Source: Fretibacterium sp. OH1220_COT-178 (GTDB lineage: Bacteria; Synergistota; Synergistia; Synergistales; Aminobacteriaceae). From it: a stretch of DNA of 57,504 nucleotides. A model generated the notes under the pieces. The model had not been told where the DNA came from. It worked only from the letters and a program-made list of their open reading frames with translations, and searched no databases. Below, piece after piece: positions 33,345 through 57,504 of this stretch. The DNA is taken from positions 1 to 57,504 of the forward strand of contig NZ_RQYL01000018.1 of the NCBI RefSeq assembly GCF_003860125.1, given 5' to 3'. The position numbers were made by a program, and so were the translations under genes. Positions within the stretch are counted from its first letter, which is position 1; every line of letters begins with the position of its first letter.

Positions 33345-34595
33345 TCAGTGCGCCAGCGACCTCATGAACCAGAGGATGTTCGGGATCGCGAACAGGTCGA
33401 TCAGGGCGGCCCCGCAGAGGGGGACGATCAGAAAGGCCTTGTAGGAGACCAGATTGTGGTGGTCGCAGGCCGCCCGCATCATCGAGACGGCGCTCGGCGG
33501 GGCTCCAAGCCCGTGGCCGATGAAGCCGGAGCAGATGATCGCCGCGTCGTAATCCCCGCCCATCAGGGGAAAGATGACGAATACCGTCATCAGGAGGATC
33601 ATGGCGGTCTGAACGGCCAGGATCGCCAGCAGCGGAAGGGCCAGGCCGTAAAGTTCGCCGATCCTGACGCTCATCATCGAGGTGGTCAGAAAGAGGCTGA
33701 CCGATACCGTCGAGATCAGGTCGAGGCACTGGGGGTGGATGCGAACGATCTTCAGGGCGTCGTTCAGGTTGCGGAACGCCACCGCCAGAAACATCGCGCC
33801 CAGATATCCGGGGAAGGTGAAGTTCCCCCAGCCCCAGACCTCTCTGGCCCAGTGCTGCAGCCGATCCGCCCCCCAGCGCCCGAACGCCATCAGGGCCAGG
33901 AGGAGCCCCAACGTGTGGATGAAGTCGTTGATCGTGATGGCCTCCCGCTCCTCGGAGTCGTGGTAGCCCTTCTTGAAGAATTCCAGGTCCGTCGTGAGCT
34001 TCAGATTTTTTCGGCGGACCAGCCAGTCCGCGACGGGGGCCCCCAGGGTGCCTCCGACGATGATCCCGAAGGTGGCCGCCGCCACGGCGACGACCAGCGC
34101 TCCCTCCGCCCCCAGGGATTCGGCCGATGGGCCGAAGATGACGGCCAGGCTGTGCCCGCCCTGGAGGGACACGGCGCCCGCCATGACGCCCAGCAGGGGA
34201 TGGAGTCCGAGGAGCTTTGCGGCCGACACCCCCACGATGTTCTGCAACAGGGCCAGGCCCCAGCAACAACAGAGATAGAGGAAGAGCGTCTCGCCGCCCC
34301 GATGAAAGGCGCGAAAGCTTCCCGTGAGGCCGATTCGGGTGAAGAATACGGCGATCATCGGTATTTGCAGGCTGAGGTCGAAATTGACCGCGGCGACCCC
34401 CGATGCGCTCAGCGAGAAGGTCGTCGCCGCGGCCAGGAGGCCTCCGATGACTCCGGCGGGAATGCACAGGCGCCTGAAGATCTCGTAGCGGTTTCTCAGA
34501 CCGACGCCCAGAAGAAAGAGGAGCGAGGCGATCGCTGCGGTGAACACGGGGTCGAATTGAACGTTCGCAAAGCCTTGAATGCTTGAGACTTCCAT
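33345..34595 (-). CDS. gltS: Sodium/glutamate symporter (first copy)
   Basis: 416 aa with about ten membrane spans in two inverted repeats. The re-entrant loops carry GVMAGAVSLQGGHSLAVIFG and ICSGFIGHGLGAPPSA, the GltS signatures. It imports glutamate with Na+. The start ATG at 34595 has only a weak ribosome site. A near-consensus promoter lies 60 nt upstream, and ptb follows after 47 nt. Confidence 0.92.
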   Translation of the reverse strand: MEVSSIQGFANVQFDPVFTAAIASLLFLLGVGLRNRYEIFRRLCIPAGVIGGLLAAATTFSLSASGVAAVNFDLSLQIPMIAVFFTRIGLTGSFRAFHRGGETLFLYLCCCWGLALLQNIVGVSAAKLLGLHPLLGVMAGAVSLQGGHSLAVIFGPSAESLGAEGALVVAVAAATFGIIVGGTLGAPVADWLVRRKNLKLTTDLEFFKKGYHDSEEREAITINDFIHTLGLLLALMAFGRWGADRLQHWAREVWGWGNFTFPGYLGAMFLAVAFRNLNDALKIVRIHPQCLDLISTVSVSLFLTTSMMSVRIGELYGLALPLLAILAVQTAMILLMTVFVIFPLMGGDYDAAIICSGFIGHGLGAPPSAVSMMRAACDHHNLVSYKAFLIVPLCGAALIDLFAIPNILWFMRSLAH

Positions 34596-34786: not shown

Positions 34787-36061
34787 TCAGGGTGTGACGA
34801 CAGGAAAGGCAGCCGCGAGGCGATTGATGAACCAGACGATGTTGGGGATTCCCACCAGGTCGATCAGCACCGCGCCGCACAGCGGGACGATGAGAAATGC
34901 CTTGTAGGAGATCACTCCGTAGCGCTCGCATACCGCACTCATGTTGGAGACCGCGTTGGGGGTCGCTCCGAGCCCGTGTCCGACGAAGCCGGAGCAGATG
35001 ACGGCCGCATCGTAGTCCCTGCCCAGAAGACGGAAGAGAACGAAAATGGCGATGATCGCGATGCTCAGTACCTGGAGCAACAGAATGGCGATCAGCGGGA
35101 TGGCCAGATCGTAGAGGTCCCAGATGCGCAGGCTCATCATGGCCATCGTCAGGAAGATGCCGATGGAGATGTCCGCGATGAGTTCGATGGCTCGCTCGTG
35201 AAGCCTGACGACCTTGAGTCCATCGTTCAGGTTGCGGAAGATCACGGCTGCGAACATGGCTCCGACGTACCCGGGAAGGGAGAAGTTCTGCCATTTCCAG
35301 ACGTTCTTGGCCTGATCATTGAACCAGCCGGAGGCCATGGAGCCCAGCGCCATGAGGGCGAGCACCAGGGTCAGCATGCGGAAGAGGTCGAAACTGTCGG
35401 TCTCCCTCGACATTGTCTCGAGGTCCGGATGCGTCTTGTAAAGCGCGTCCTGAGAGGCGGAGAGCTCCAGTTTGTTGCGCTGGATCAGCCAGGTTGCCAG
35501 AGGCCCTCCCATGATCCCGCCCGCAATCAGGCCGAAGGTCGCCGATGCGATGGCGACGGCCTTGGCCCCGGCGATCCCCATGGCCTCCGCCGTGGGGCCG
35601 AATGCCGCGGCCGCTCCGTGTCCGCCCTCCAGGGAGACCGCACCGGCCATGACGCCCAGAACCGGATGAATGCCGAAGATCTTGGCCAAGGAGGCTCCGA
35701 ATGCGTTCTGGAACACCGCGAGTCCCCAGCAGGCGCAGAGGTAGACGATCAACGCCCGCCCTCCTTTTTTCAGGAGCCCCAGGCTTCCGCCGATTCCGAC
35801 CGTGGTGAAGAACGCCAGCATCATGGGGCTCTGGAGCGTGGTCTGGAATTTCACCGTGGCTCCGCCCCGATGGTGTAAAAAGAGGGTGATCAGAGCCATA
35901 ACGAGCCCGCCGATAACCGCGGCGGGAATGCTGTAGCGCGTCAGGAAAGCTATTTTGCGCCGGAGTCCGACGCCGATCATGTAGAGGATGGCCGCGATGG
36001 CCGTGGTGAACAAGGGGTCGAAGCTGAGGGTGAACACTCCGTTGATCGTCTCCCAATTCAA
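34787..36061 (-). CDS. gltS: Sodium/glutamate symporter (second copy)
   Basis: 424 aa paralogue of the gene at 33345-34595. Shared signatures are GVMAGAVSLEGGHGAAAAFG and ICSGFVGHGLGATPNAVSNM. It has about ten spans. The start is TTG at 36061 with AAAGGA upstream; internal ATG codons would cut into the first span. It follows proA by 80 nt on the same strand, so imported glutamate may feed proline synthesis (inference). Confidence 0.91.
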   Translation of the reverse strand: MNWETINGVFTLSFDPLFTTAIAAILYMIGVGLRRKIAFLTRYSIPAAVIGGLVMALITLFLHHRGGATVKFQTTLQSPMMLAFFTTVGIGGSLGLLKKGGRALIVYLCACWGLAVFQNAFGASLAKIFGIHPVLGVMAGAVSLEGGHGAAAAFGPTAEAMGIAGAKAVAIASATFGLIAGGIMGGPLATWLIQRNKLELSASQDALYKTHPDLETMSRETDSFDLFRMLTLVLALMALGSMASGWFNDQAKNVWKWQNFSLPGYVGAMFAAVIFRNLNDGLKVVRLHERAIELIADISIGIFLTMAMMSLRIWDLYDLAIPLIAILLLQVLSIAIIAIFVLFRLLGRDYDAAVICSGFVGHGLGATPNAVSNMSAVCERYGVISYKAFLIVPLCGAVLIDLVGIPNIVWFINRLAAAFPVVTP

Positions 36062-45250: not shown

Positions 45251-46018
45251 ATGGAAGACCTATTTGCTCAGAAGGTTTCCTTGGGATTCACCTGGCATAT
45301 CGCGCCCGAAAAGACGAGGACTCTGCATCCACTTGCGGACCGTCAGGACGCTCTTTATGCTTTCGTTCGGGAAATCCCGTCCTATGTTGCATCAACGCTG
45401 CGGACGTTTGAGAACATCAAGACCTCCGATCTCGATGCCAAAATCATCATCGAGTATGGGCGTGGTGTTGCAGATATGCCGACGATGGCCATTCGCACGG
45501 TTGAAAATTATGGGCAAGCATCACGTTATCTGTTTGAACGACTGAAAAACCAGGAATCCTCAACCTTTGCACTCGACCTCGATTTGATCGGCAGACTGCA
45601 CGGAATCTTGGCTCGAGACGAAGTACGACACCCTGGCCAACTGCGCCAAATGCCCGTTCGCATAGAGGAGAGCAGCTACATTCCTCCACCTCCCGCTCAA
45701 ATCCGCGGGATCATGGAACAGGGGCTTGATTTTCTCAACAAAGGGGCTCTGTCTGTCCCAGAGCGCGCATTTGCGACATTTCTTTTTATATCCCGAACTC
45801 AGCCGTTCGAGAATGCGAACAAGAGAACTGCAGCACTGTGCATGAATGCCATTCTGATGTCGTATGGATATCCGGCGGTCGTCATTGAGGGACCGACGCG
45901 TGAGTTTTTGCATTCTATGGCGAACTTCTATGAAACGGCGGCAGCCGACACGGTAATGAACGAGCTATTTGACATGGCTGTTCGGCAACACCACCTTTAT
46001 CTCAATTCCTCGGAGTAA
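45251..46018 (+). CDS. Fic-domain protein with altered active site
   Basis: 255 aa. The Fic fold is clear: the flap PGQLRQMPVRIEESSYIPPPP (residues 128-148) and the active-site loop QPFENANKRTAAL (184-196). In active Fic proteins the loop begins HPF; here His is Gln (Q184), so the usual AMP-transfer base is missing. The anion-binding N190-K191-R192 is kept. It may be inactive, regulatory, or use another reaction. No antitoxin gene is adjacent. The start ATG at 45251 has GGAGGG upstream. It lies between two insertion-sequence remnants and has lower GC than the core genes, suggesting transfer. Confidence 0.88.
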   Translation: MEDLFAQKVSLGFTWHIAPEKTRTLHPLADRQDALYAFVREIPSYVASTLRTFENIKTSDLDAKIIIEYGRGVADMPTMAIRTVENYGQASRYLFERLKNQESSTFALDLDLIGRLHGILARDEVRHPGQLRQMPVRIEESSYIPPPPAQIRGIMEQGLDFLNKGALSVPERAFATFLFISRTQPFENANKRTAALCMNAILMSYGYPAVVIEGPTREFLHSMANFYETAAADTVMNELFDMAVRQHHLYLNSSE

Positions 46019-46658: not shown

Positions 46659-46722
46659 AGAAGACCCTTTTTTGAAATGGGAACTTTTCCCAAAAACAAT
46701 CTGCTGAGAGGGTGGGGAAATC

Positions 46723-47507
46723 TTGATCTCTTCTCTTGTCCTGTGCGAGGCTCTGTCGGACGGTCACCTTCCTGTCTCGAACGGTTACCTGCTTTTTTCC
46801 GCTTTGACGCGGCGGCCTCGGAGAGGGGCGTCCCGGAGTGTCTGCATGGCGTGTCCGGGTTCAACGGCGCGGCTTTGAGCGCGCTCACGCCGGAGTCCTT
46901 CTGGCGTACGCTGCATTACTCCTGGGGGAAAGGGGTCCTTCAACTTAAAAAGGGCGAAAAGCTGGCCTTTCGCGTTTCCTTCCTGGAGGATGCGCTTCTG
47001 GATTCCTTTGCGCAGGCTGTGGCGGGCTCTTCGCTCACCCTCGGCGGGGCGCCCATCGGGGTCCGACACGTCTCGCGCCCCGGAGAGAATGCGATGAGCC
47101 GACGGGTGAACGAAGAAGAGCTTCGGGAGAGTCCCCCCTGTAATGGGGCTGACGTCGTGTTTCTCTCTCCTTCCGGTTTCAAGAGCGGTTCGGTTCAGAA
47201 CATCCTTCCCGAGCCGATTTTTTGGTTCAGGAGCCTGGCGGCCCGGTGGAAAGCGGCCTATGGGGAGAGCCTGATTGAAGACACGTTGGAAAACACGTTT
47301 GTCGCGGATTACTCCCTGCGAAGTGCGGCGGTCCTGCTGAAGGAGAGCCTCGTCTTTCGGGGCTGTGTGGGACGGATCCGTTATGTCTGGAAAAACGAAA
47401 GAACGGCGGTCAGAAAGGCGCTTGCCTGCCTGACCGCTTTCGCTTTTTTCTGCGGCGTCGGTTACAAGACGACCCAGGGAATGGGGCAGGTGTTGGTGGA
47501 GTTTTGA
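46723..47507 (+). CDS. cas6: Cas6 crRNA endoribonuclease, apparently frameshifted near its start
   Basis: RAMP-fold nuclease that cuts CRISPR precursor RNA. The C-terminus has the Cas6 glycine-rich loop GVGYKTTQGMGQV, preceded by FRGCVGRIRYVW. The N-terminus fits the family only if two frames are joined. From TTG at 46723 (with GAGGGTGGGG upstream) one frame reads ISSLVLCEALSDGHLPVSNG and YLLFSALT. The continuation AASERGVPECLHG lies one base back. One base seems missing between about 46790 and 46815, where there are a run of six T and a GC repeat. Alternatively, ATG at 46677 opens the second frame, but its first 40 residues look non-coding. Cmr1 follows 36 nt later. Confidence 0.8.
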
Positions 47508-47543
47508 GGCGATCGGTATTTTTTATGGAAAGGATGGTGCGGT

Positions 47544-48839
47544 ATGGGGCGGAGTGTTCCGGAGACGGTGTGCATTGACGGGATTGAAAGTACCGGGCCA
47601 GGCGGCTCCCCGGAAGAACGGGTCTATGAAATCGAGCTGATCACCCCGATGTACGGCGGCGGGGTTGTGGCGGGGGTTGTCGATGAGGAGATGCCGGTGA
47701 GGGCGACCTCTATTCGCGGACATCTGCGATTTTGGTGGCGTTTGCTCTATGGGCTGAAACTGTCCTTAAACGATATGAGAAAGGAGGAAGCCGCAATTTT
47801 CGGAAGCACTCAATCAGCCAGCAAGGTAGCGCTCAGGGTCAGGCTGCCTGATACCCGCTTGAGCTTAAAAGCTATGGCTTCTATTTCAGAAGAAGGCGGA
47901 AAGAAAAAGATTGTTTTTGAAACGGGGAAAAACAAGCTACAGTACGCGATTTTTCCTTTTCAGGGGAAAATCGGAAAAAAAGGAGAACCGGACGTCGCTC
48001 CATCTTTGGCTCTCGTAAACGCGGGATTCAAACTTTTGCTGTCCTTTTCTCCGAAACTTCCAGATGCTCAGAGGGAACAGGTTTTGAATTCCCTCCATGG
48101 ATGGATTAATTTCGGTGGACTGGGGGCTCGGGCACGGCGTGGGTGCGGAGCGCTTTATTCTAAAGACTGCGCGATGGAAAGCACGGAAAATATTTCCAGC
48201 CTTTTAACAGGAGCTCCAGGTATTGAAACTGTTCTGATGGGGAATGTGAAGGATGATGCGGAAAGTGCCTGGTGCGAGATGGTTGGCCTCATAAAGCAGT
48301 TCCGTCAGGGGGCGGGGATAGGGCGAAACGAAGGACAGAGCAAAGAAAAAACAAAAACGCCGGGTCGCTCACGATGGCCGGAGCCTGATACGATTCGAGG
48401 GAAGGTTGAAGCCCATTTGGAGCGCCATGCGCCGACCATGCAAGTTGAGGGATTCCCCCGCGCGAGGTTTGGTATGCCGATCATCTTTCACTTTAAGGAC
48501 AGCGATTTTGGGGGTAAATCCAAACCAGGTATGGACCCGATTGACACGTGTCTACAGCCGGAATCCAGTTCCAGAATGGCAAGCCCCGTTCTTCTCTCTC
48601 CAGTCAAATTGAAAAATGGTAAAGTCGTCCCCATGATCATCTTCTTGAAGACTGGGCCTCTCTGCAGTCTTCTGCTTGAGCGCAGCGACACAAAAGATAC
48701 GTATCCAATTTCTTCTGACCAGATCATCAACCCCAAGTTTTCAACCTACAACAATTCACCGATGAAGGGACGTTCGAATAACGGCGATGCGCTCGAGGCG
48801 TTTAGGGCTTATTTGAAAGAAAGAGATTATAGGAGGTGA
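47544..48839 (+). CDS. cmr1: Type III-B RAMP protein Cmr1
   Basis: 431 aa Cas7-group subunit that caps the target-3' end of the Cmr complex. The N-terminal ATSIRGHLRFWWRLLYG is the hallmark of Cmr1, and FGGLGARARRGCGAL is its glycine-rich loop. The middle section (48100-48800) is less GC-rich and more diverged than the neighbours. The start ATG at 47544 follows AAGGATGG. The stop is 4 nt before cmr2. Confidence 0.93.
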   Translation: MGRSVPETVCIDGIESTGPGGSPEERVYEIELITPMYGGGVVAGVVDEEMPVRATSIRGHLRFWWRLLYGLKLSLNDMRKEEAAIFGSTQSASKVALRVRLPDTRLSLKAMASISEEGGKKKIVFETGKNKLQYAIFPFQGKIGKKGEPDVAPSLALVNAGFKLLLSFSPKLPDAQREQVLNSLHGWINFGGLGARARRGCGALYSKDCAMESTENISSLLTGAPGIETVLMGNVKDDAESAWCEMVGLIKQFRQGAGIGRNEGQSKEKTKTPGRSRWPEPDTIRGKVEAHLERHAPTMQVEGFPRARFGMPIIFHFKDSDFGGKSKPGMDPIDTCLQPESSSRMASPVLLSPVKLKNGKVVPMIIFLKTGPLCSLLLERSDTKDTYPISSDQIINPKFSTYNNSPMKGRSNNGDALEAFRAYLKERDYRR

Positions 48840-48843
48840 GCCT

Positions 48844-50697
48844 GTGAGCCAGGAGGTCAAAAGCTGTCTTCTGCAGCTGAGCATCGGGCCGGTTCAGGAG
48901 TTCATCGCCGCGGCACGGCGCACACGCGACCTGTGGTTCGGTTCGTTCATGCTCTCGGAGATCTCCAAGGCCGCGGCGAAAGCCCTGAAGGATGCCAAGG
49001 CCGAGCTGATTTTTCCCGAACCGGACGGGGACCTGAATCCGAAATCCGAGCTGAACGTCGCCAACGTGATTCTGGCGCGGGTGCATGGCGGCCATGCCGA
49101 GATGAGGGCTTTGTCGGACAAGACGAGGACGGCCGCAGTCGAGCGTTTTAAGGCGTTTGCCGACGAGGCCTATAAAAAGGCGGAGCGTTGTATTGTAAAG
49201 GAACGTTGGGATAAGCAGATCGAAGACGTCATCGAGTTTTATGCCGCCTGGACGGAGATCGGGACGGGGGAGGGGGCCTATAAGGCGGCCCGCCAAAGAG
49301 TGGCCCGCCTGCTGGCGGCCCGGAAGAACCTGCGCGATTTTCTGCCGTATGAGGGGGAGTTCGGGGTTCCGAAGTCCTCGCTGGACGGACTGCGGGAGAG
49401 TGTGTTCAGGGATGGAAAGGTCCCGGCGATTGCGGGATTGCGTCTGAAGGAGGGTGAGGCTCTCGACTCCGTGGGGCTCATCAAGCGCGTTGCCGGGGAC
49501 GAACGTTTCCCGTCCGTGTCGCGCGTCGCCGTGGACCCGTGGGTGCGCGGCGCGAGGGAGGAGACGCTCCGGGTGGAGACGCTCCGGGAGCTGACGCCGC
49601 ATTGTGAGGCACTGGTCAAAGCGGGGGCCATCAGTCGCGTGAGGGGGGGCGAAGCCTTTCCCTATGAGGGGACGGCCGTGCTGCTCTCCCGCCATGCCTC
49701 GATGCTGGCGGAGTGCGGGGATAAGGAGGGGGCGAATGCGGCCTGTAAGGCCATCGCCGAGATATTGTCCCGTCTGCGCCCACAGGACAGGCCTCTGGAG
49801 CCCTATTTCGCCTTGCTGGTCGCCGACGGCGACCGGATGGGCGCGGCGATCTCGGAGATCGGGGACATGGAGAGGCACCAGAAATTCTCCTCGACCCTGT
49901 CGAAATTTGCGGGGAAGGCACGAGAGATCGTCCAAGAGCACAGTGGCGTCTGCGTCTACACGGGAGGGGACGACGTGTTGGCCTTCCTGCCGCTCGACAC
50001 GTGCCTGCCTTGTGCCCGGGAGCTGCACGATGCGTTTGGCGAGCTCCTGAAGGATTATAAGTCCATCAAGGATCAGAGGGCTCCCACCCTGTCCGTGGGG
50101 ATCTCGATCGGACACGCGATGGAGGATTTGGAGGACCTGTTGGCATTCGGCCGCGAAGCCGAAAAGGTTGCGAAGAAGGGGGTGGGGGAAGGGAGCCTCA
50201 AAGCGAAGACGGACCGCAACGGGCTTGCCGTCGTCGTGCGGTCGCGCGGCTCCGGAGCCGTCGTCGTGCGGGAACAGTGGGGAGATAGGGCCGAAGAGAC
50301 GCGAGCCTTGGCCAAGGTCTCCCTGGACGAGCGCCTGCACTATTGGGCGCGTTTGTTCGCCGATGGGGCCATACCCAATAAGTTCCCCTACGAGTTGCGT
50401 GAAAACGTGGAGTTTTACAGGGGATGGGAGGCCGGAGATGTCCTGAAGGCCGCCATGCAGGACGATATAAAACGAATATTCCGTCGCAAGGACGTGAATC
50501 TGAGTGATAAGGAACGGAATCGGGTAGAGACGTACATTGATGCGGCGTTGTGTGGTTCATGCCAGATCGACAGACTACAAAACGAGCTGGTGATATCGCG
50601 GGGTGATGCCCGCGATATCGATAGGCTCTCGGACGAGCTGCTGATCGCTCAATGGATCGGGTTTGGGGTCCGGCAGGCGAAGGGAGGGGACCGGTGA
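48844..50697 (+). CDS. cmr2: Type III-B Cas10 (Cmr2) without an HD nuclease domain
   Basis: 617 aa large subunit. It begins at once with the palm-1 opening LSIGPVQEFIAAARRTRDLW and FGSFMLSEISKAAA. The N-terminal HD DNase domain found in longer Cmr2 proteins is absent. Palm-1 also contains YFALLVADGDRMG. Palm-2 has an intact GGDD at residues 374-377 (CVYTGGDDVLAFLP), the site that makes cyclic oligoadenylates from ATP. Loss of HD with retention of GGDD implies defence through second-messenger signalling rather than target DNA cutting by this subunit (inference from family biochemistry). The start codon at 48844 is GTG, following AGGAGGT. Confidence 0.95.
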   Translation: MSQEVKSCLLQLSIGPVQEFIAAARRTRDLWFGSFMLSEISKAAAKALKDAKAELIFPEPDGDLNPKSELNVANVILARVHGGHAEMRALSDKTRTAAVERFKAFADEAYKKAERCIVKERWDKQIEDVIEFYAAWTEIGTGEGAYKAARQRVARLLAARKNLRDFLPYEGEFGVPKSSLDGLRESVFRDGKVPAIAGLRLKEGEALDSVGLIKRVAGDERFPSVSRVAVDPWVRGAREETLRVETLRELTPHCEALVKAGAISRVRGGEAFPYEGTAVLLSRHASMLAECGDKEGANAACKAIAEILSRLRPQDRPLEPYFALLVADGDRMGAAISEIGDMERHQKFSSTLSKFAGKAREIVQEHSGVCVYTGGDDVLAFLPLDTCLPCARELHDAFGELLKDYKSIKDQRAPTLSVGISIGHAMEDLEDLLAFGREAEKVAKKGVGEGSLKAKTDRNGLAVVVRSRGSGAVVVREQWGDRAEETRALAKVSLDERLHYWARLFADGAIPNKFPYELRENVEFYRGWEAGDVLKAAMQDDIKRIFRRKDVNLSDKERNRVETYIDAALCGSCQIDRLQNELVISRGDARDIDRLSDELLIAQWIGFGVRQAKGGDR

Positions 50698-50699
50698 AC

Positions 50700-51884
50700 A
50701 TGGGAGAGAGTATGAGGTATTTTCGATTGACCCCGTTGAGCCCGCTGATCGCGCGGGACTCCAGGCCCTTCGGCGCGGGGCAGGGGAACCGGGTGCGCTC
50801 GATGGACTGGATCTCCCCGTCGGTCATCGCGGGGGCTGTCCGTACCGCTGTCTGGAAGGAGAAGGACACGCTCACGCCGGAACAACTCAAGACGATCGAG
50901 GTGCACGGCGCCTTTCCGATCGCGGACGAGCAGATTTATTTTCCCCGTCCGCTCGACGCCCTGATCCGTAAGGTGGAGAAAGAGACGGGGATTGCGGATA
51001 TCCTTCGCATCCGTCCGATGGCCCGGGGCGAAGGGCTGGGCGTACCGATGCCCCACGAGAGCCTTGTTCCGTCCGCTCCGGTGGAGATGCCCGAGGAGGA
51101 TTTCAAGCCGGAGCGGAGCGACGACTTCTGGTCTCTGGAGGCGATGGCGAAGTGGCTGGGATGCGAGGAGGATCAGCGGGTCTTGATGAGGATCGACGGA
51201 CTTCCCGCCCCCGTGAAGGAGGACCGCACGAACGTGACGATCCTTCCGGAGAGCGGCGCGGCGGAGGATACCAAGCTGTTCACGACCACGGGGCTGGACT
51301 TCGTGAGGAGGCCCAGGGATGGCGAGTCGAAGGGACGGCTGAGCCAGATGCGGATCGGCGTCCGGGTGAACTTCGGGGATTACACCCTTCTGGCCGGACG
51401 TTTCCTCGTTCCCCTTGGGGGGGAGCGGCGCCTTGCGGAGACGGTGGAGAGCGGAGACCAGGACAAATTCTGGAAGGCGCCCGACGCTTTGAACGTGAGG
51501 TCCGGCAAGGGGTTGCGCATGGTCCTGGCAACTCCGGCCCTCTTTGCGAAGGGCTGGCTTCCGGGCTGGCTTCGCGAGGAGCACGGCAATTTGACGGGGA
51601 CCATACCGGGGAGCGGCGTGTCGGTCCGACTCGTCTCCGCCGTCGTGGGACGCTGGAAGCCCTTGTCCGGCTGGAGCTACGAAAGGGGAAGGAACGGCCC
51701 CAAGGCCCTGCGTCGGATGGTCCCTGCGGGGAGCGTGTATTTCTTCGAGGTATTGGAGGGCGGGGCGGAACTTTCCACGCTTTGGCTCCGTTCCGTCTGC
51801 GACTCCGCACAGGACGGGCGCGACGGGTTCGGGCTGGCCCTCTGGGGGCTCTGGAGCGGCCGTGAATCCGCTCGATGTTTTTGA
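50700..51884 (+). CDS. cmr3: Type III-B RAMP protein Cmr3
   Basis: 394 aa Cas5-group subunit that holds the crRNA 5' handle next to Cas10. Features include LTPLSPLIARDSRPFGAG and DWISPSVIAGAVRTAVW near the N-terminus, and TTTGLDFVRR before a glycine-rich part. The start ATG at 50700 overlaps the end of cmr2 closely and follows GGGAGGGG; an ATG at 50712 and a GTG at 50694 are possible. It has normal length. Confidence 0.92.
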   Translation: MGESMRYFRLTPLSPLIARDSRPFGAGQGNRVRSMDWISPSVIAGAVRTAVWKEKDTLTPEQLKTIEVHGAFPIADEQIYFPRPLDALIRKVEKETGIADILRIRPMARGEGLGVPMPHESLVPSAPVEMPEEDFKPERSDDFWSLEAMAKWLGCEEDQRVLMRIDGLPAPVKEDRTNVTILPESGAAEDTKLFTTTGLDFVRRPRDGESKGRLSQMRIGVRVNFGDYTLLAGRFLVPLGGERRLAETVESGDQDKFWKAPDALNVRSGKGLRMVLATPALFAKGWLPGWLREEHGNLTGTIPGSGVSVRLVSAVVGRWKPLSGWSYERGRNGPKALRRMVPAGSVYFFEVLEGGAELSTLWLRSVCDSAQDGRDGFGLALWGLWSGRESARCF

Positions 51885-51905
51885 GGTTTCGGGAAGGAGA
51901 GGGTT

Positions 51906-52805
51906 GTGGTGGATAATACGAAGTTCGAGAAACGCTACTGGATTCATACGGTAACACCGCTTCACGTAGGGACGGGACGGGGCGTTGGTTACATCGACCT
52001 GCCGATAGCACGGGAGAAGGTCACGAACTGGCCCTGCATTCCCGGCTCCGCCGTGAAAGGAGTGGTGGCCGATCATTTCGGGGCTACCGAGGAGGAGAGA
52101 AAGAAGAATGGACTTGTCCGGGCCGCGTTCGGAACGGCCAACGCCTCGGACAGCAATGAGGCAAACAGCACGGCGGGTTCTCTGGTGTTCACGGATGCCC
52201 GTATCGTCTGCCTGCCCGTCCGGAGCTTCTACGGGACGTTTGCCTGGGTGACCTCGCCCTTCTGTCTCGAGCGGCTGAAGCGGGACGCGGGGATGGACGT
52301 GCCGTCCATGAGCGTGGGCTCCGCTGTCCTGACGAAGACGACGAAGCTCGTTCGTGACGGTTCGAGACTCTACCTCGAGGATCTGGATCTCGACTGTAAG
52401 AGGGACGAAAAGGCCGATGCCTGCGCGGAACTCATCGCGGGGGCTGTCTTTGCGGACAGCCCCGAATGGCAGGCCATCTTCCGGGAGAGGCTGGCGATCG
52501 TGAACGACGATATCTTCACCTTTCTGTGCGAGTCCGGCACGGAGGTCAGCGCGCATATCCGGATCGACGAAGCGTCGGGGACCGTTGCAGATGGTGCGCT
52601 CTGGTACGAGGAGGCCTTGCCGGTCGAGGCCCTTCTGGCGGGGACGGTCTGGTGCGATCGCGTGTACCGTAACAAGAATGCAAACGATGAGCTGACGAAG
52701 GAGAAGCTGCTGGAGAATTTCTGTTCCAAGCCCCTCGAACTGCAGATCGGCGGCAAGGCCTCGACCGGCAAGGGGCAGGTACGCTGCCTCTTCCAGAAGC
52801 TGTGA
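51906..52805 (+). CDS. cmr4: Type III-B backbone RNase Cmr4
   Basis: 299 aa Cas7-group subunit present in several copies per complex. It cuts bound target RNA at 6-nt intervals. The RAMP start HTVTPLHVGTGRGVGYIDLP contains the likely catalytic Asp D31, followed by IPGSAVKGVVADHFG. The C-terminus ends with GGKASTGKGQVRC, the glycine-rich loop. The start is GTG at 51906 after GGAGAGGG. All residues expected for RNA cleavage appear intact. Confidence 0.94.
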   Translation: MVDNTKFEKRYWIHTVTPLHVGTGRGVGYIDLPIAREKVTNWPCIPGSAVKGVVADHFGATEEERKKNGLVRAAFGTANASDSNEANSTAGSLVFTDARIVCLPVRSFYGTFAWVTSPFCLERLKRDAGMDVPSMSVGSAVLTKTTKLVRDGSRLYLEDLDLDCKRDEKADACAELIAGAVFADSPEWQAIFRERLAIVNDDIFTFLCESGTEVSAHIRIDEASGTVADGALWYEEALPVEALLAGTVWCDRVYRNKNANDELTKEKLLENFCSKPLELQIGGKASTGKGQVRCLFQKL

Positions 52806-52816
52806 GGAGGTTGGTC

Positions 52817-53152
52817 ATGAGTATTCGGACGAAGGATCAGCAGATGGCCCAGACCGCATTTGAACGCGTCCAGGGCAGGAGCAGTGGGTTTGAGGAATAC
52901 AGCAGTTTCGCCCTCGCGTTCCCGTCGCTGGTACATTCTTGCGGCCTGGCTCAGGCGCTGGCGTTCGCTCAGGCCAAGGGCAGGGCGGACTACCTGTCGG
53001 ATCTGGAGAGGGTTCTGGGCGAGGACGGAGGCGGGGATCTTTGCACGCGGAGCCGGGAGGCGGAGCTGATGGAGTATATGCGCCTCTCGCGCCGTGTCCT
53101 GATGGCCTCGTCCTGGATCAAGCGCTACTGTCAGGCGGAGGGAGGGAACTGA
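52817..53152 (+). CDS. cmr5: Type III-B small subunit Cmr5
   Basis: 111 aa, all-helical. SIRTKDQQMAQTAFERVQ at the N-terminus and FPSLVHSCGLAQALAFAQAK in the middle are the Cmr5 pattern. It fills the minor filament along the crRNA-target duplex. The start ATG at 52817 follows GGAGG. One base separates its stop from cmr6. Confidence 0.93.
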   Translation: MSIRTKDQQMAQTAFERVQGRSSGFEEYSSFALAFPSLVHSCGLAQALAFAQAKGRADYLSDLERVLGEDGGGDLCTRSREAELMEYMRLSRRVLMASSWIKRYCQAEGGN

Positions 53153-53153
53153 G

Positions 53154-54266
53154 ATGCAGGCGCTGAGAGATGCGCTGAAAGACCTCTCCAAAGGGCAGAA
53201 CGCCTCGCTGCTCCTGGCCCGTTACCTGACGGAGACCAAGAGTGGGGAGGAGGAGAAGGAGGCCGCTCAGAGGGGACGGGACGAGCTCTTCCGGGCCGCG
53301 CGCTCCTCGGTGAGGGACGAGGAGGTCCAGGCCCTCTATGCCAGGGCCTTCGAGATGCGGAAGAGCGCGCTGTCGGCCTGCACGTCCTCGCGCATTTTCA
53401 AAACCGAGGGGCGGCTCATCGCGGGGCTTGGGGGCGGCAGTGTGCTCGAGACCGGACTGACCCTGAACCCGCTCTACGGGGCGCCGATGATCCCCGGAAG
53501 CTCCCTGAAAGGGTTGGCCGCTCACTACTGTTCCGAGGTCTGGGGCGCGGAGGACGAACGTTTTCGTTCTCCTGCCCTGGACGGCAGGACGCGTCCGACC
53601 CGGCAGGCGGGGCCCGTCTACGAGGTGCTTTTTGGAAAAGTCCCTCTGTCCCGTAAAGAAAAGGACGCCAAGGCGGGTTTCCTTCGCTTTTACGACGCAT
53701 GGCTCCTTCCCGACTCCCTTCCAAATTCGCTCTGCCCTGACGTCATGACGCCTCATCATAGCGCGTATTACACGGGCGAGGGAGCCCCGACGGACTTCGA
53801 CGACCCCAACCCGGTGACCTTCCTCTCCGTGAAGGGGGCGTTCGAGGTGCGCGTGGGATGCGAGGATCCCGACCCTGAGGTCCGGAAGAAATGGGAGGAT
53901 CTGGCGCTTCGGCTTCTGGGAGAGGCTTTTGAGCGCTATGGTGCGGGCGGGAAGACCCGGTCGGGCTATGGACGGATGCGGCATGAGGAGTCCGAAGAGG
54001 AGAAGCGGGCGCGTCTGCAGGCAGCCCAGCAGGCCGATGCGGAGAAGCGCAGTCGTGAGGCCGGTTTTACTCATCCGATCTGTGAGGAGTTGACGGTTCG
54101 CTGCGACAAGGTCAACAAGAAAGGGAACAGTTCCTTTACGATAGAGGGTAAGGAAGCCCGGTTCGATCCGGTTCTGAAGGTCGATAAGGGAACCGAGGTA
54201 AGGGCGAGGATTGTGGGGGTCGATCTCTCCGGAAAAGGATGCTATGTTTTGGAACGTGTGCCGTGA
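53154..54266 (+). CDS. cmr6: Type III-B RAMP protein Cmr6 with a C-terminal extension
   Basis: 370 aa. The Cmr6 core runs to about residue 275, with GLGGGSVLETGLTLNPLYG, IPGSSLKGLAAHYC and the glycine-rich end GAGGKTRSGYGRM. Usual Cmr6 proteins stop near that loop. Here about 95 residues follow: a charged, probably coiled-coil helix (about 276-303) and then a beta-rich stretch (ELTVRCDKVNKKGNSSF to the end) that looks like an OB or S1-type RNA-binding fold. The extension is unusual and could contact RNA or an accessory protein. It is the last gene of the tightly packed cmr set. Confidence 0.92.
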   Translation: MQALRDALKDLSKGQNASLLLARYLTETKSGEEEKEAAQRGRDELFRAARSSVRDEEVQALYARAFEMRKSALSACTSSRIFKTEGRLIAGLGGGSVLETGLTLNPLYGAPMIPGSSLKGLAAHYCSEVWGAEDERFRSPALDGRTRPTRQAGPVYEVLFGKVPLSRKEKDAKAGFLRFYDAWLLPDSLPNSLCPDVMTPHHSAYYTGEGAPTDFDDPNPVTFLSVKGAFEVRVGCEDPDPEVRKKWEDLALRLLGEAFERYGAGGKTRSGYGRMRHEESEEEKRARLQAAQQADAEKRSREAGFTHPICEELTVRCDKVNKKGNSSFTIEGKEARFDPVLKVDKGTEVRARIVGVDLSGKGCYVLERVP

Positions 54267-54403: not shown

Positions 54404-55540
54404 ATGAACAAGCTTGTCCTGTGCACGACGGGAACCTCTATTGGAGGGGGATGCAAAGAATTCAGGGAAGCGGCGAAAAAGGGCCATCCCTGGGAACATG
54501 AAAGTGTGCCTGGCCTGAAGCAATGTATCCGTGACAGGCTCAAGGACATCGATCTCTCTCAGGATCAGGAACAGAGGAAATGCAGCGCGGAGATGAACTC
54601 GTTGAACCGCCTGAAGCTGTGCGGGGACGACAGGGTGGTGCTTTTGGCCACGGATACGGCCGACGGCCGCGCCACCTCGGAGGTCCTGAGAGAGACGATC
54701 CTGAAGACCTACGGTATGGGCGAAAAACAGGTGGAGCTGAAGCATGTCGTGGGACTCCAGGTTCGGGATTCCAAAAAACTGCGTAAAGAAGGTCTCAGAA
54801 ACTTCGTGAACATTGTGCTGGACTATCTGGCCGATGAGCAGATCCGTTATGAGTATGAGGTGATCCTGAACCCGACGGGGGGATTCAAAGGGGTGGTTCC
54901 CTTCCTTACCACTTTGGGGATGCTCTACCGAAGACGCAGTGTGTATATCTTCGAGCACGCCGAGGAACTGATCGACCTCCCGCCCCTTCCTTTTGCGTTC
55001 GACCTCAACCTCTATCAAAGGGCCCAGAAGGCCTTGCAGCGCATCGAACAGGAGACGGCCGTCCGTGAGGAGATCTTTTTCGACGCTATCGACGGCTATT
55101 GCCCGGAGGAACGCGATTTATTCCTGTCGTTCACGGAACCTGTCGACAGTAGCGGGAACATCACCCTCTCTCCCCTGGCGTTTTGTCTTCTCAAGATTGA
55201 AACCGAAGGGAGCCGCCCGCCAAAAATCCGCTCTCAGGTCAGGGATTTTCTGAAGCGGGATCTCGGCGATTCGGGGAAGATCCTGAGGACCATGATATCC
55301 AACTGCAGCAGTCCCTTGTGGAGGAACACCCATTATCATACCTGGAGCAGGGACAAGACGGATCTGATCATCATGAAACGTTCGGCATCCTCGGAGCGTC
55401 TTGCGGGTTTTCTTCATGAGGGAGTCTTTCACGTCACCCATGCTTTCAGCTCTCACGACAAATATGAGAAGGAGCTCGAGAACACATTCAGAGCAAATTA
55501 CAATCCCAGTGAATTTATGGAATGGACAGCGGACGTTTGA
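54404..55540 (+). CDS. CRISPR-associated CARF protein, APE2256 family, with C-terminal effector-like domain
   Basis: 378 aa. The first 210 or so residues match the APE2256 (TIGR02619) CARF group: LVLCTTGTSIGGG, AEMNSLNRLK, LLATDTADGRA, the ligand-pocket NPTGGFKGVVPFLTTLG and ELIDLPPLPFAFD. Such domains bind cyclic oligoadenylate, and some degrade it. Residues 220-378 form a second domain. Its end (HTWSRDKTDLIIMKR ... FHVTHAFSSHDKYEKEL) has the strand-rich shape of RelE-type RNases; this is a guess, as no catalytic set is certain. The start ATG at 54404 has GGAGGG upstream. It is placed to act as a Cas10-triggered effector or ring nuclease. Confidence 0.82.
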   Translation: MNKLVLCTTGTSIGGGCKEFREAAKKGHPWEHESVPGLKQCIRDRLKDIDLSQDQEQRKCSAEMNSLNRLKLCGDDRVVLLATDTADGRATSEVLRETILKTYGMGEKQVELKHVVGLQVRDSKKLRKEGLRNFVNIVLDYLADEQIRYEYEVILNPTGGFKGVVPFLTTLGMLYRRRSVYIFEHAEELIDLPPLPFAFDLNLYQRAQKALQRIEQETAVREEIFFDAIDGYCPEERDLFLSFTEPVDSSGNITLSPLAFCLLKIETEGSRPPKIRSQVRDFLKRDLGDSGKILRTMISNCSSPLWRNTHYHTWSRDKTDLIIMKRSASSERLAGFLHEGVFHVTHAFSSHDKYEKELENTFRANYNPSEFMEWTADV

Positions 55541-55919: not shown

Positions 55920-56870
55920 ATGAGAGAACTGCTGACGACCTTCTGCAGGGGGCGTGAGATCCAGCTGCTCTGGCAGCCTGAGCCGGAGACGATTCCGGAG
56001 CTCATGGGGGAGGGGTTTATCCCCATCGAGATGGCCGAGGGGACGGTGTCGTATGTCGATTTTCGCTGCCTGGACCATCACAACGACTATTCGCATCTCC
56101 CCTCTGCCTGCGTCACCGCGCTCGCGTTCTACGGTACACTGGGTGAGGATGCCCCCGCCCGTCTGATGGTCAACCATACCGACGCGGACTCCGTGCTGAC
56201 GGGGGTGACGCTTATGGGGCTCCTGCCCCGTGAACTTCTGGAAGAGCTCAACCCGGAAGTGGGCCTTCTGGACACGGATCCTCTGAACATGAATGCCGAA
56301 GGTCTGCGTTACGGCGATGCGATCCGTCTCTGGAGGGCCGGAATGGCCTCCGTCAGACGGAGCGGCTGGAGCTGGCTCTATGGAGTTCAGTTGTTTCTCG
56401 ACCTGTTCTGTCATTTTGATCGTTATGCGAAAAAAATCGATCAGCTTCAGGAAGGGGAGAGGGCGCGCAGGGAACAGGCCTTGAAGGACTACGCAAGAGC
56501 GGTCTTGGGCCCCTCGGGCAAGGTGCTTCTGGTGGCGCCTTCGACCGTCAGGGGACATGACGTGCATTTTTTTCGGCAGGAGGCGTTTTCTCCGACGTCA
56601 CTCGAGGGATGGCGTCATTGGTGCGTGATCTCTCACGTGGAGAAGGCGGGGAACGTCATGCTGGCCTGTCCGAACAAAGAGGTGGCCGAACGGGCTTTTG
56701 GGGCCGGTGGTCTGAAGAATGTCTTCCCCCTCCTGCCCAACCTTGAGGGAAGAGAATGGGGCGGTCGGGAATCCGTGGGGGGATCCCCAAGGGGCGTTGT
56801 CTTTCCTGTCGACCTGCTGGCCGAGGTTTTATCGATTGTGGAAAGATCTTTGAGGGGGAAGACGGCTTGA
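55920..56870 (+). CDS. DHH-like putative phosphodiesterase in the type III-B locus
   Basis: 316 aa, no exact family recognised. Three motifs recall DHH/DHHA1 phosphoesterases: DHH at residues 52-54 in FRCLDHHNDYSHLP, HTDADS (86-91) in MVNHTDADSVLTGV, and DTD at 118-120. Near the C-terminus WGGRESVGGSPRG (280-292) resembles the glycine-rich DHHA1 substrate loop. The DHH motif comes before the Asp motif, the reverse of the common order, so it may be a rearranged version. DHH enzymes hydrolyse short oligonucleotides and cyclic nucleotides. In this setting it could remove cyclic oligoadenylate (inference). The start ATG at 55920 follows AAGGAG. Confidence 0.6.
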   Translation: MRELLTTFCRGREIQLLWQPEPETIPELMGEGFIPIEMAEGTVSYVDFRCLDHHNDYSHLPSACVTALAFYGTLGEDAPARLMVNHTDADSVLTGVTLMGLLPRELLEELNPEVGLLDTDPLNMNAEGLRYGDAIRLWRAGMASVRRSGWSWLYGVQLFLDLFCHFDRYAKKIDQLQEGERARREQALKDYARAVLGPSGKVLLVAPSTVRGHDVHFFRQEAFSPTSLEGWRHWCVISHVEKAGNVMLACPNKEVAERAFGAGGLKNVFPLLPNLEGREWGGRESVGGSPRGVVFPVDLLAEVLSIVERSLRGKTA

Positions 56871-56976: not shown

Positions 56977-57474
56977 ATGGAGGATTGCGTAATAAAGGAG
57001 ATGGGGCAGGACGTGGGAGAGGATGCACCGGAGAAAAAGGTGTTGTTGTCGTTTGTGGGAATGCGGGACCCGTACCCGGACGATAAATCGGGAGCTCCGG
57101 ATACATCGTCTTCGGGTAGTATCCTGACGCTTTGCAGAGAGTTGAAGTTGGACAGCGTGTATCTGTTCCCGTCCAGTAAAAAGAAGGCTAAAAATCCAAA
57201 AAATCAAACAGAGGACAGGGCTTACGAGGTAAAACGTATATTGAAGGAACAAAGAAAAAGTCCCGAATGCCATATACTTCCTTTAGAGGTAAAGGATGTT
57301 ACGGATATTCAAGAACTTTATAAACATTTCAAGAATAATCTTCTCAGTGTTCTCAACAGCTTGTCCTCCTGGCATCCGAAAGGCCTGTCCGGCTACAAAT
57401 TTTATTTGGTTCCTCGTTATTCTGTGTGGGTAAGGAACTATTCAGTCAAATTCAAATGTCCTGCGACGAGGTAA
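56977..57474 (+). CDS. RtcR-like CARF-domain protein, possibly frameshifted
   Basis: 165 aa to the TAA at 57472-57474. VLLSFVGMRDPYPDD, SILTLCRELKLDSVYLFPSS and LPLEVKDVTDIQELYKHFK follow the CARF domain seen in RtcR and related CRISPR sensors. After GYKFYL (about 57411) the usual SSGT-x-Q pocket motif should come, but the frame gives an unrelated tail. A fitting continuation (QIQMSCDEVNHIDEGL) lies in another frame and stays open to the window end. The gene may be broken, or a sequencing indel may be present. A GTG at 57040 after GGAG is an alternative start. GC content is low compared with the core genes. Confidence 0.65.
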   Translation: MEDCVIKEMGQDVGEDAPEKKVLLSFVGMRDPYPDDKSGAPDTSSSGSILTLCRELKLDSVYLFPSSKKKAKNPKNQTEDRAYEVKRILKEQRKSPECHILPLEVKDVTDIQELYKHFKNNLLSVLNSLSSWHPKGLSGYKFYLVPRYSVWVRNYSVKFKCPATR

Positions 57475-57504
57475 ATCATATCGATGAAGGTCTGTTTGTT
57501 TCGA

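Follow-up and report, generated by a model that had tools for sequence, protein, structure and literature searches.

The CRISPR locus and its effector genes

The window, by which we mean the whole 57,504-nucleotide stretch of DNA that was analysed, contains a type III CRISPR setting close to its end. An operon encoding Cas6, Cmr1, Cas10/Cmr2, Cmr3, Cmr4, Cmr5 and Cmr6 occupies positions 46677..54266 of the forward strand and includes, at 48844..50697 (+), a Cas10/Cmr2 gene with the GGDD cyclase motif, a possible source of a second messenger. It is followed on the same strand by the gene for a 378-amino-acid, Cami1-like CARF-RelE effector (54404..55540; PADLOC, 2.1e-48), by the open reading frame that is the subject of this work (55920..56870; 316 amino acids, ATG start, with AAGGAG lying eight bases 5' of the ATG) and by a reading frame encoding the N-terminal portion of a CARF-HEPN protein of Csm6 type (56977..57474; 1.5e-17 to the start of the CARF1-HEPN Csm6 proteins). 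This last reading frame closes early, at 165 amino acids in a family that is around 430 amino acids long, and the contig ends 30 bases later at 57504; it is either an interrupted gene or an assembly error. A first-pass annotation had placed the 316-residue protein inside a CRISPR locus, and the neighbouring genes bear this out. No CRISPR array was found in the 57,504-nucleotide window. A Fic-domain gene lies at 45251-46018, just 5' of Cas6, and elsewhere two direct repeats of 218 nucleotides (33364-33581 and 34827-35044) are 77% identical and 1463 apart.

Conservation of the 316-residue protein

Homologues with 49-75% identity to the window copy occur in six other Synergistota genomes, that of Fretibacterium fastidiosum among them, and a scan of genomes with an exact peptide pattern returned the same six together with one remnant; a search for plasmid or viral homologues found none. 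Pairwise dN/dS values for the family lie between 0.095 and 0.23 (five pairs), and the reading frame is therefore a real protein gene under purifying selection.

The alignment of the seven proteins has about 100 invariant columns, and the four motifs that the first-pass annotation had listed are all where it put them. These are, all on the forward strand, the DHH of residues 52-54 (codons 56073..56081; motif III), HTDADS at residues 86-91, preceded by an asparagine (NHTDADS, residues 85-91, 56172..56192), DTD at residues 118-120 (56271..56279) and a glycine-rich loop, WGGRESVGGSPRG, at residues 280-292 (56757..56795), which is a candidate DHHA1-like glycine motif. Invariant in all seven proteins are D52, H53, H54 and N55; N85, H86, D88 and D90; L117 and D118; and W280, G281, G282, R283, E284, V286 and G287-G292 of the loop (WGGRE.VGGSPRG). 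D118 is the sole invariant residue of the DTD triplet, position 119 being T or I and position 120 D or E. A further invariant glutamate, E37 (56028..56030, +), lies 15 residues ahead of the DHH. The cysteines C9, C64, C235 and C250 are also conserved in all seven proteins, and could form a structural metal site.

Neighbours of the homologues

In four of the seven genomes the intact copy has, directly 3' of it, a gene for a CARF effector (Csm6 or Csx1) or what is left of one: the Csm6 start of the window, a Csx1 gene (locus L013), a Csm6 gene (L014) and a WYL-Csm6 remnant fusion (L017). In the last of these a WYL protein (L017:1393-2373) continues in frame into a match to the Csm6 CARF domain (residues 194-237), and the stretch is either a deletion fusion or a remnant. 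Csm6 or Csx1 follows the gene on the same strand in three loci, across gaps of about 25-110 bases, and in L014, L016 and L017 a WYL gene is next to it. At the remaining three intact copies no CARF neighbour is visible; in L018 the gene is followed by an assembly gap of 495 Ns, in L016 by a WYL gene and then the contig end, and in L015 by sequence without a recognisable gene product. A small open reading frame in that sequence (L015:2556-2891) carries six tandem 42-nucleotide repeats. In L019 (306-1450) a degenerate CRISPR array is followed by the frame-broken remnant of the gene, and then by a locus of CARF-RelE and Cmr genes.

Around the intact copies in the other genomes, no Cmr genes were found beside the gene in the available DNA. 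Because the 3' genes there are Csx1, Csm6 or WYL-Csm6 without adjoining Cmr genes, the recurrent partner of the family is a CARF effector and not the Cmr operon. Co-occurrence with Cas10 across the phylum was also considered and set aside: a Cmr-type Cas10 was detected in 3 of the 7 genomes with an intact copy, compared with 40 of 188 genomes phylum-wide, a count in which several of the genomes are incomplete, and the excess is not significant (Fisher p 0.17). Linkage to a type III locus or a CARF effector, as expected of ring nucleases, is seen in the CARF genes or remnants beside four of the seven copies and in the Cmr operon of the window. The earlier proposal that an off-switch for the defence would suit this setting is partly supported: it gains from the recurrent CARF neighbours and loses at the three copies where none is visible.

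Relationship to NrN and the DHH superfamily

No model in Pfam, NCBIfam, PADLOC or PHROGs matches the 316-residue protein, and membership of the CRISPR families in the first three was accordingly rejected. Pfam DHH (PF01368) does not match it in either native or rotated order, a test that is uninformative because the NrN protein of Arcobacter has no match to a Pfam DHH model either and because the PDB matches of an NrN profile include no other DHH protein. NrN is a DHH/DHHA1-family phosphodiesterase of the Bacteroides fragilis type III-B CRISPR system that cleaves SAM-AMP, and not cA2-cA6 (PMC10600005), and is needed for immunity in the reconstituted system (PMC10600005, PMC12255297).

It is to NrN that the family is most closely drawn. 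The native family profile, run against 177,635 PDB sequences, has the three NrN entries as its sole matches (E 1.5, with the similarity confined to a short local stretch of about 40 residues, 23-64), and hhalign of the family against NrN, represented by the B. fragilis protein and by those of an Arcobacter and a Haliscomenobacter plasmid, gives 72.7% and a score of 41.4, where 150 column shuffles have a mean of 14.1, a standard deviation of 2.5 and a maximum of 21.8. In the reverse direction, the best place for the NrN profile across the seven genomes is the family gene of one of them (G149, E 0.039). With NrN of B. fragilis (PDB 9lq9-9lqc) the family has in common a DHHNEY..PSA block, the glutamate 15 residues before the DHH, the asparagine 33 residues after it and a C-terminal GG. 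The glutamate is found in all seven family proteins and in two of the three NrN proteins (B. fragilis and Arcobacter), and N[HD] follows DHH at a distance of 33 in each of the three NrN proteins and in five of the seven family members, N85 of the window copy standing at the motif IV position of NrN; in the other two family members the distance is 31. NrN and the window copy both lie beside Cmr genes, and a WYL gene lies near the Arcobacter NrN as in some loci of the family. The two differ in that the GGxDLEM motif I, invariant in the three NrN proteins, is absent from the family, in that the N-D of NrN becomes N-H-x-D-x-D, the motif IV aspartate being replaced by histidine, in the length of the family proteins, which are some 60 residues longer, and in their neighbours, CorA for NrN and CARF effectors for the family. 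On the Haliscomenobacter plasmid (L067:5986-8679) the NrN-like segment is the N-terminal domain of a long protein beside Cmr genes.

Against an NrnA profile the family scores weakly (25.7, with a shuffle maximum of 24.7); in the standalone DHH-DHHA1 phosphodiesterases NrnA and DhhP a DHH is followed by a C-terminal glycine motif, as in the order of the candidate motifs here, but these enzymes also have a canonical N-terminal motif I, which the 316-residue protein lacks. RecJ aligns weakly, at a score (20.4) that shuffles also reach; in this alignment HTDADS falls at motif IV and WGGRESVGG at the glycine motif of DHHA1, the invariant WGGRE.VGGSPRG being collinear with the WGGH..AAG of RecJ.

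The unusual motif order that the first-pass annotation had remarked on is present as described, HTDADS resembling a canonical motif I but standing after the DHH. This resemblance suggested a circular permutation. Moving residues 75-130 ahead of residue 1, or cutting elsewhere, produced no Pfam match and did not raise the score against NrN, RecJ or NrnA (against NrnA it dropped), which makes the permutation the less likely reading. Since the spacing E-15-DHH-33-N[H/D] is common to both families, HTDADS probably lies on the strand that bears motif IV in NrN, and we prefer a collinear reading in which HTDADS would stand at motif IV and motif I would be lost or atypical. A bolder version, which we regard as unlikely, is a cyclic oligoadenylate-degrading enzyme that lost motif I and had an HxDxD rebuilt on, or permuted to, the strand after the DHH, giving a rearranged site and a new class of ring nuclease.

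Structure models

Two AlphaFold2 runs, each with seven sequences, gave models with pLDDT 54.6 and 56.8 and pTM 0.46 and 0.61, and the active-site stretches rank among their least confident regions. At the head of the Foldseek matches to the first model stand RecJ, the DNA replication protein 5ght, a PAP phosphatase, complexes that contain Cdc45, and NrnA, a list in which DHH-superfamily proteins predominate and every E-value exceeds 0.07; a PRL phosphatase is also listed, and two of the model's three best viral matches are DHH phosphohydrolases. The best matches to the second model are PRL phosphatases (E 0.04) and not DHH proteins. These PRL phosphatase matches were discounted, as the family has no conserved CX5R signature. 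The fold search thus points to DHH proteins in one low-confidence model and to PRL phosphatases in the other. The sequence relation to NrN (its sole standing among PDB matches, the score relative to shuffles and the spacing) supports the DHH assignment, and the conflicting models and unmatched PF01368 do not; on balance the protein probably belongs to the DHH superfamily and acts on a second messenger of CRISPR, for which cyclic oligoadenylate is the likeliest candidate.

Proposed function and alternatives

In more particular form, our tentative proposal, to which we give close to an even chance, is that the 316-residue protein is a strongly diverged DHH phosphodiesterase of NrN-like kind, hydrolysing the second messenger of a type III CRISPR system. 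The messenger would most likely be cyclic oligoadenylate, because the genes that recur beside this one encode nucleases with CARF sensors (Csm6, Csx1 and, in the window, CARF-RelE). On binding target RNA, Cas10 would make the messenger, the messenger would activate the CARF effectors and the 316-residue enzyme would open or degrade it. A divalent-metal site might be built from E37, D52-H53-H54 and H86/D88/D90, and the C-terminal WGGRE.VGGSPRG segment may hold the nucleotide as DHHA1 domains do. Conservation, the short sequence relation to NrN, the common spacing and the CARF neighbours are observed; from them we infer fold, metal site, activity, substrate and the switching off of defence. By analogy with NrN, which acts on SAM-AMP, and MAD, which acts on cyclic oligoadenylate, a metal-dependent phosphodiesterase would remove the messenger that the CARF partners sense, although, NrN being needed for immunity, the effect on defence might run in either direction. 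MAD, a membrane-associated DHH-DHHA1 nuclease of Sulfolobus islandicus that we know from papers only, is described as degrading cyclic oligoadenylate in PMC7854544 (citing Zhao 2020) and PMC7694759, the job that we propose, by a DHH-type route, for the protein here. The ring nucleases Crn1-Crn4, Csx15, Csx16 and Csx20 have the same proposed role and type of locus, but the 316-residue protein matches none of the CRISPR family models searched and by its sequence is not of the CARF type.

The specificity of NrN for SAM-AMP and not cyclic oligoadenylate, and the many DHH-DHHA1 enzymes whose substrates are linear dinucleotides, would fit an enzyme of DHH type acting on another nucleotide (the linear breakdown products of cyclic oligoadenylate, pApA, nanoRNA or SAM-AMP), one that cleans up and is not an off-switch. 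We judge this unlikely, given that the neighbours are CARF effectors and WYL regulators, with no CorA or SAM-AMP lyase gene recognised among those examined, and that the genome of the window already has ordinary NrnA-type proteins. A chance coincidence of DHH and HxDxD in some other metal-dependent or phosphatase-like fold appears quite unlikely: the profile relation and the spacing common to NrN stand against it, as does the want of a CX5R signature among the conserved residues, although the second structure model and the PRL entry in the first list lean that way and no DHH family model matches.

The protein might also belong to the effector arm, as a nuclease or a partner required by the CARF effector, and not switch anything off. 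The requirement for NrN in B. fragilis immunity would agree with such a role, as would the closeness of Csm6 or Csx1 on the same strand in three loci; yet no messenger-binding domain is recognised in the protein and its relative of known activity, NrN, degrades a messenger, and we hold this role to be improbable. An NrN-like phosphodiesterase acting on cyclic oligoadenylate remains the reading that we favour.

Significance

A survey of ring nucleases from 2025, which does not mention DHH proteins, considers that further families are probably still to be found (PMC12409355). The family described here adjoins CARF effectors and has no name in any of Pfam, NCBIfam, PADLOC or PHROGs, the four protein libraries examined. 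If our proposal is true, it would connect NrN, an enzyme that acts on SAM-AMP, with signalling by cyclic oligoadenylate, and would show the extent to which a DHH site can drift.
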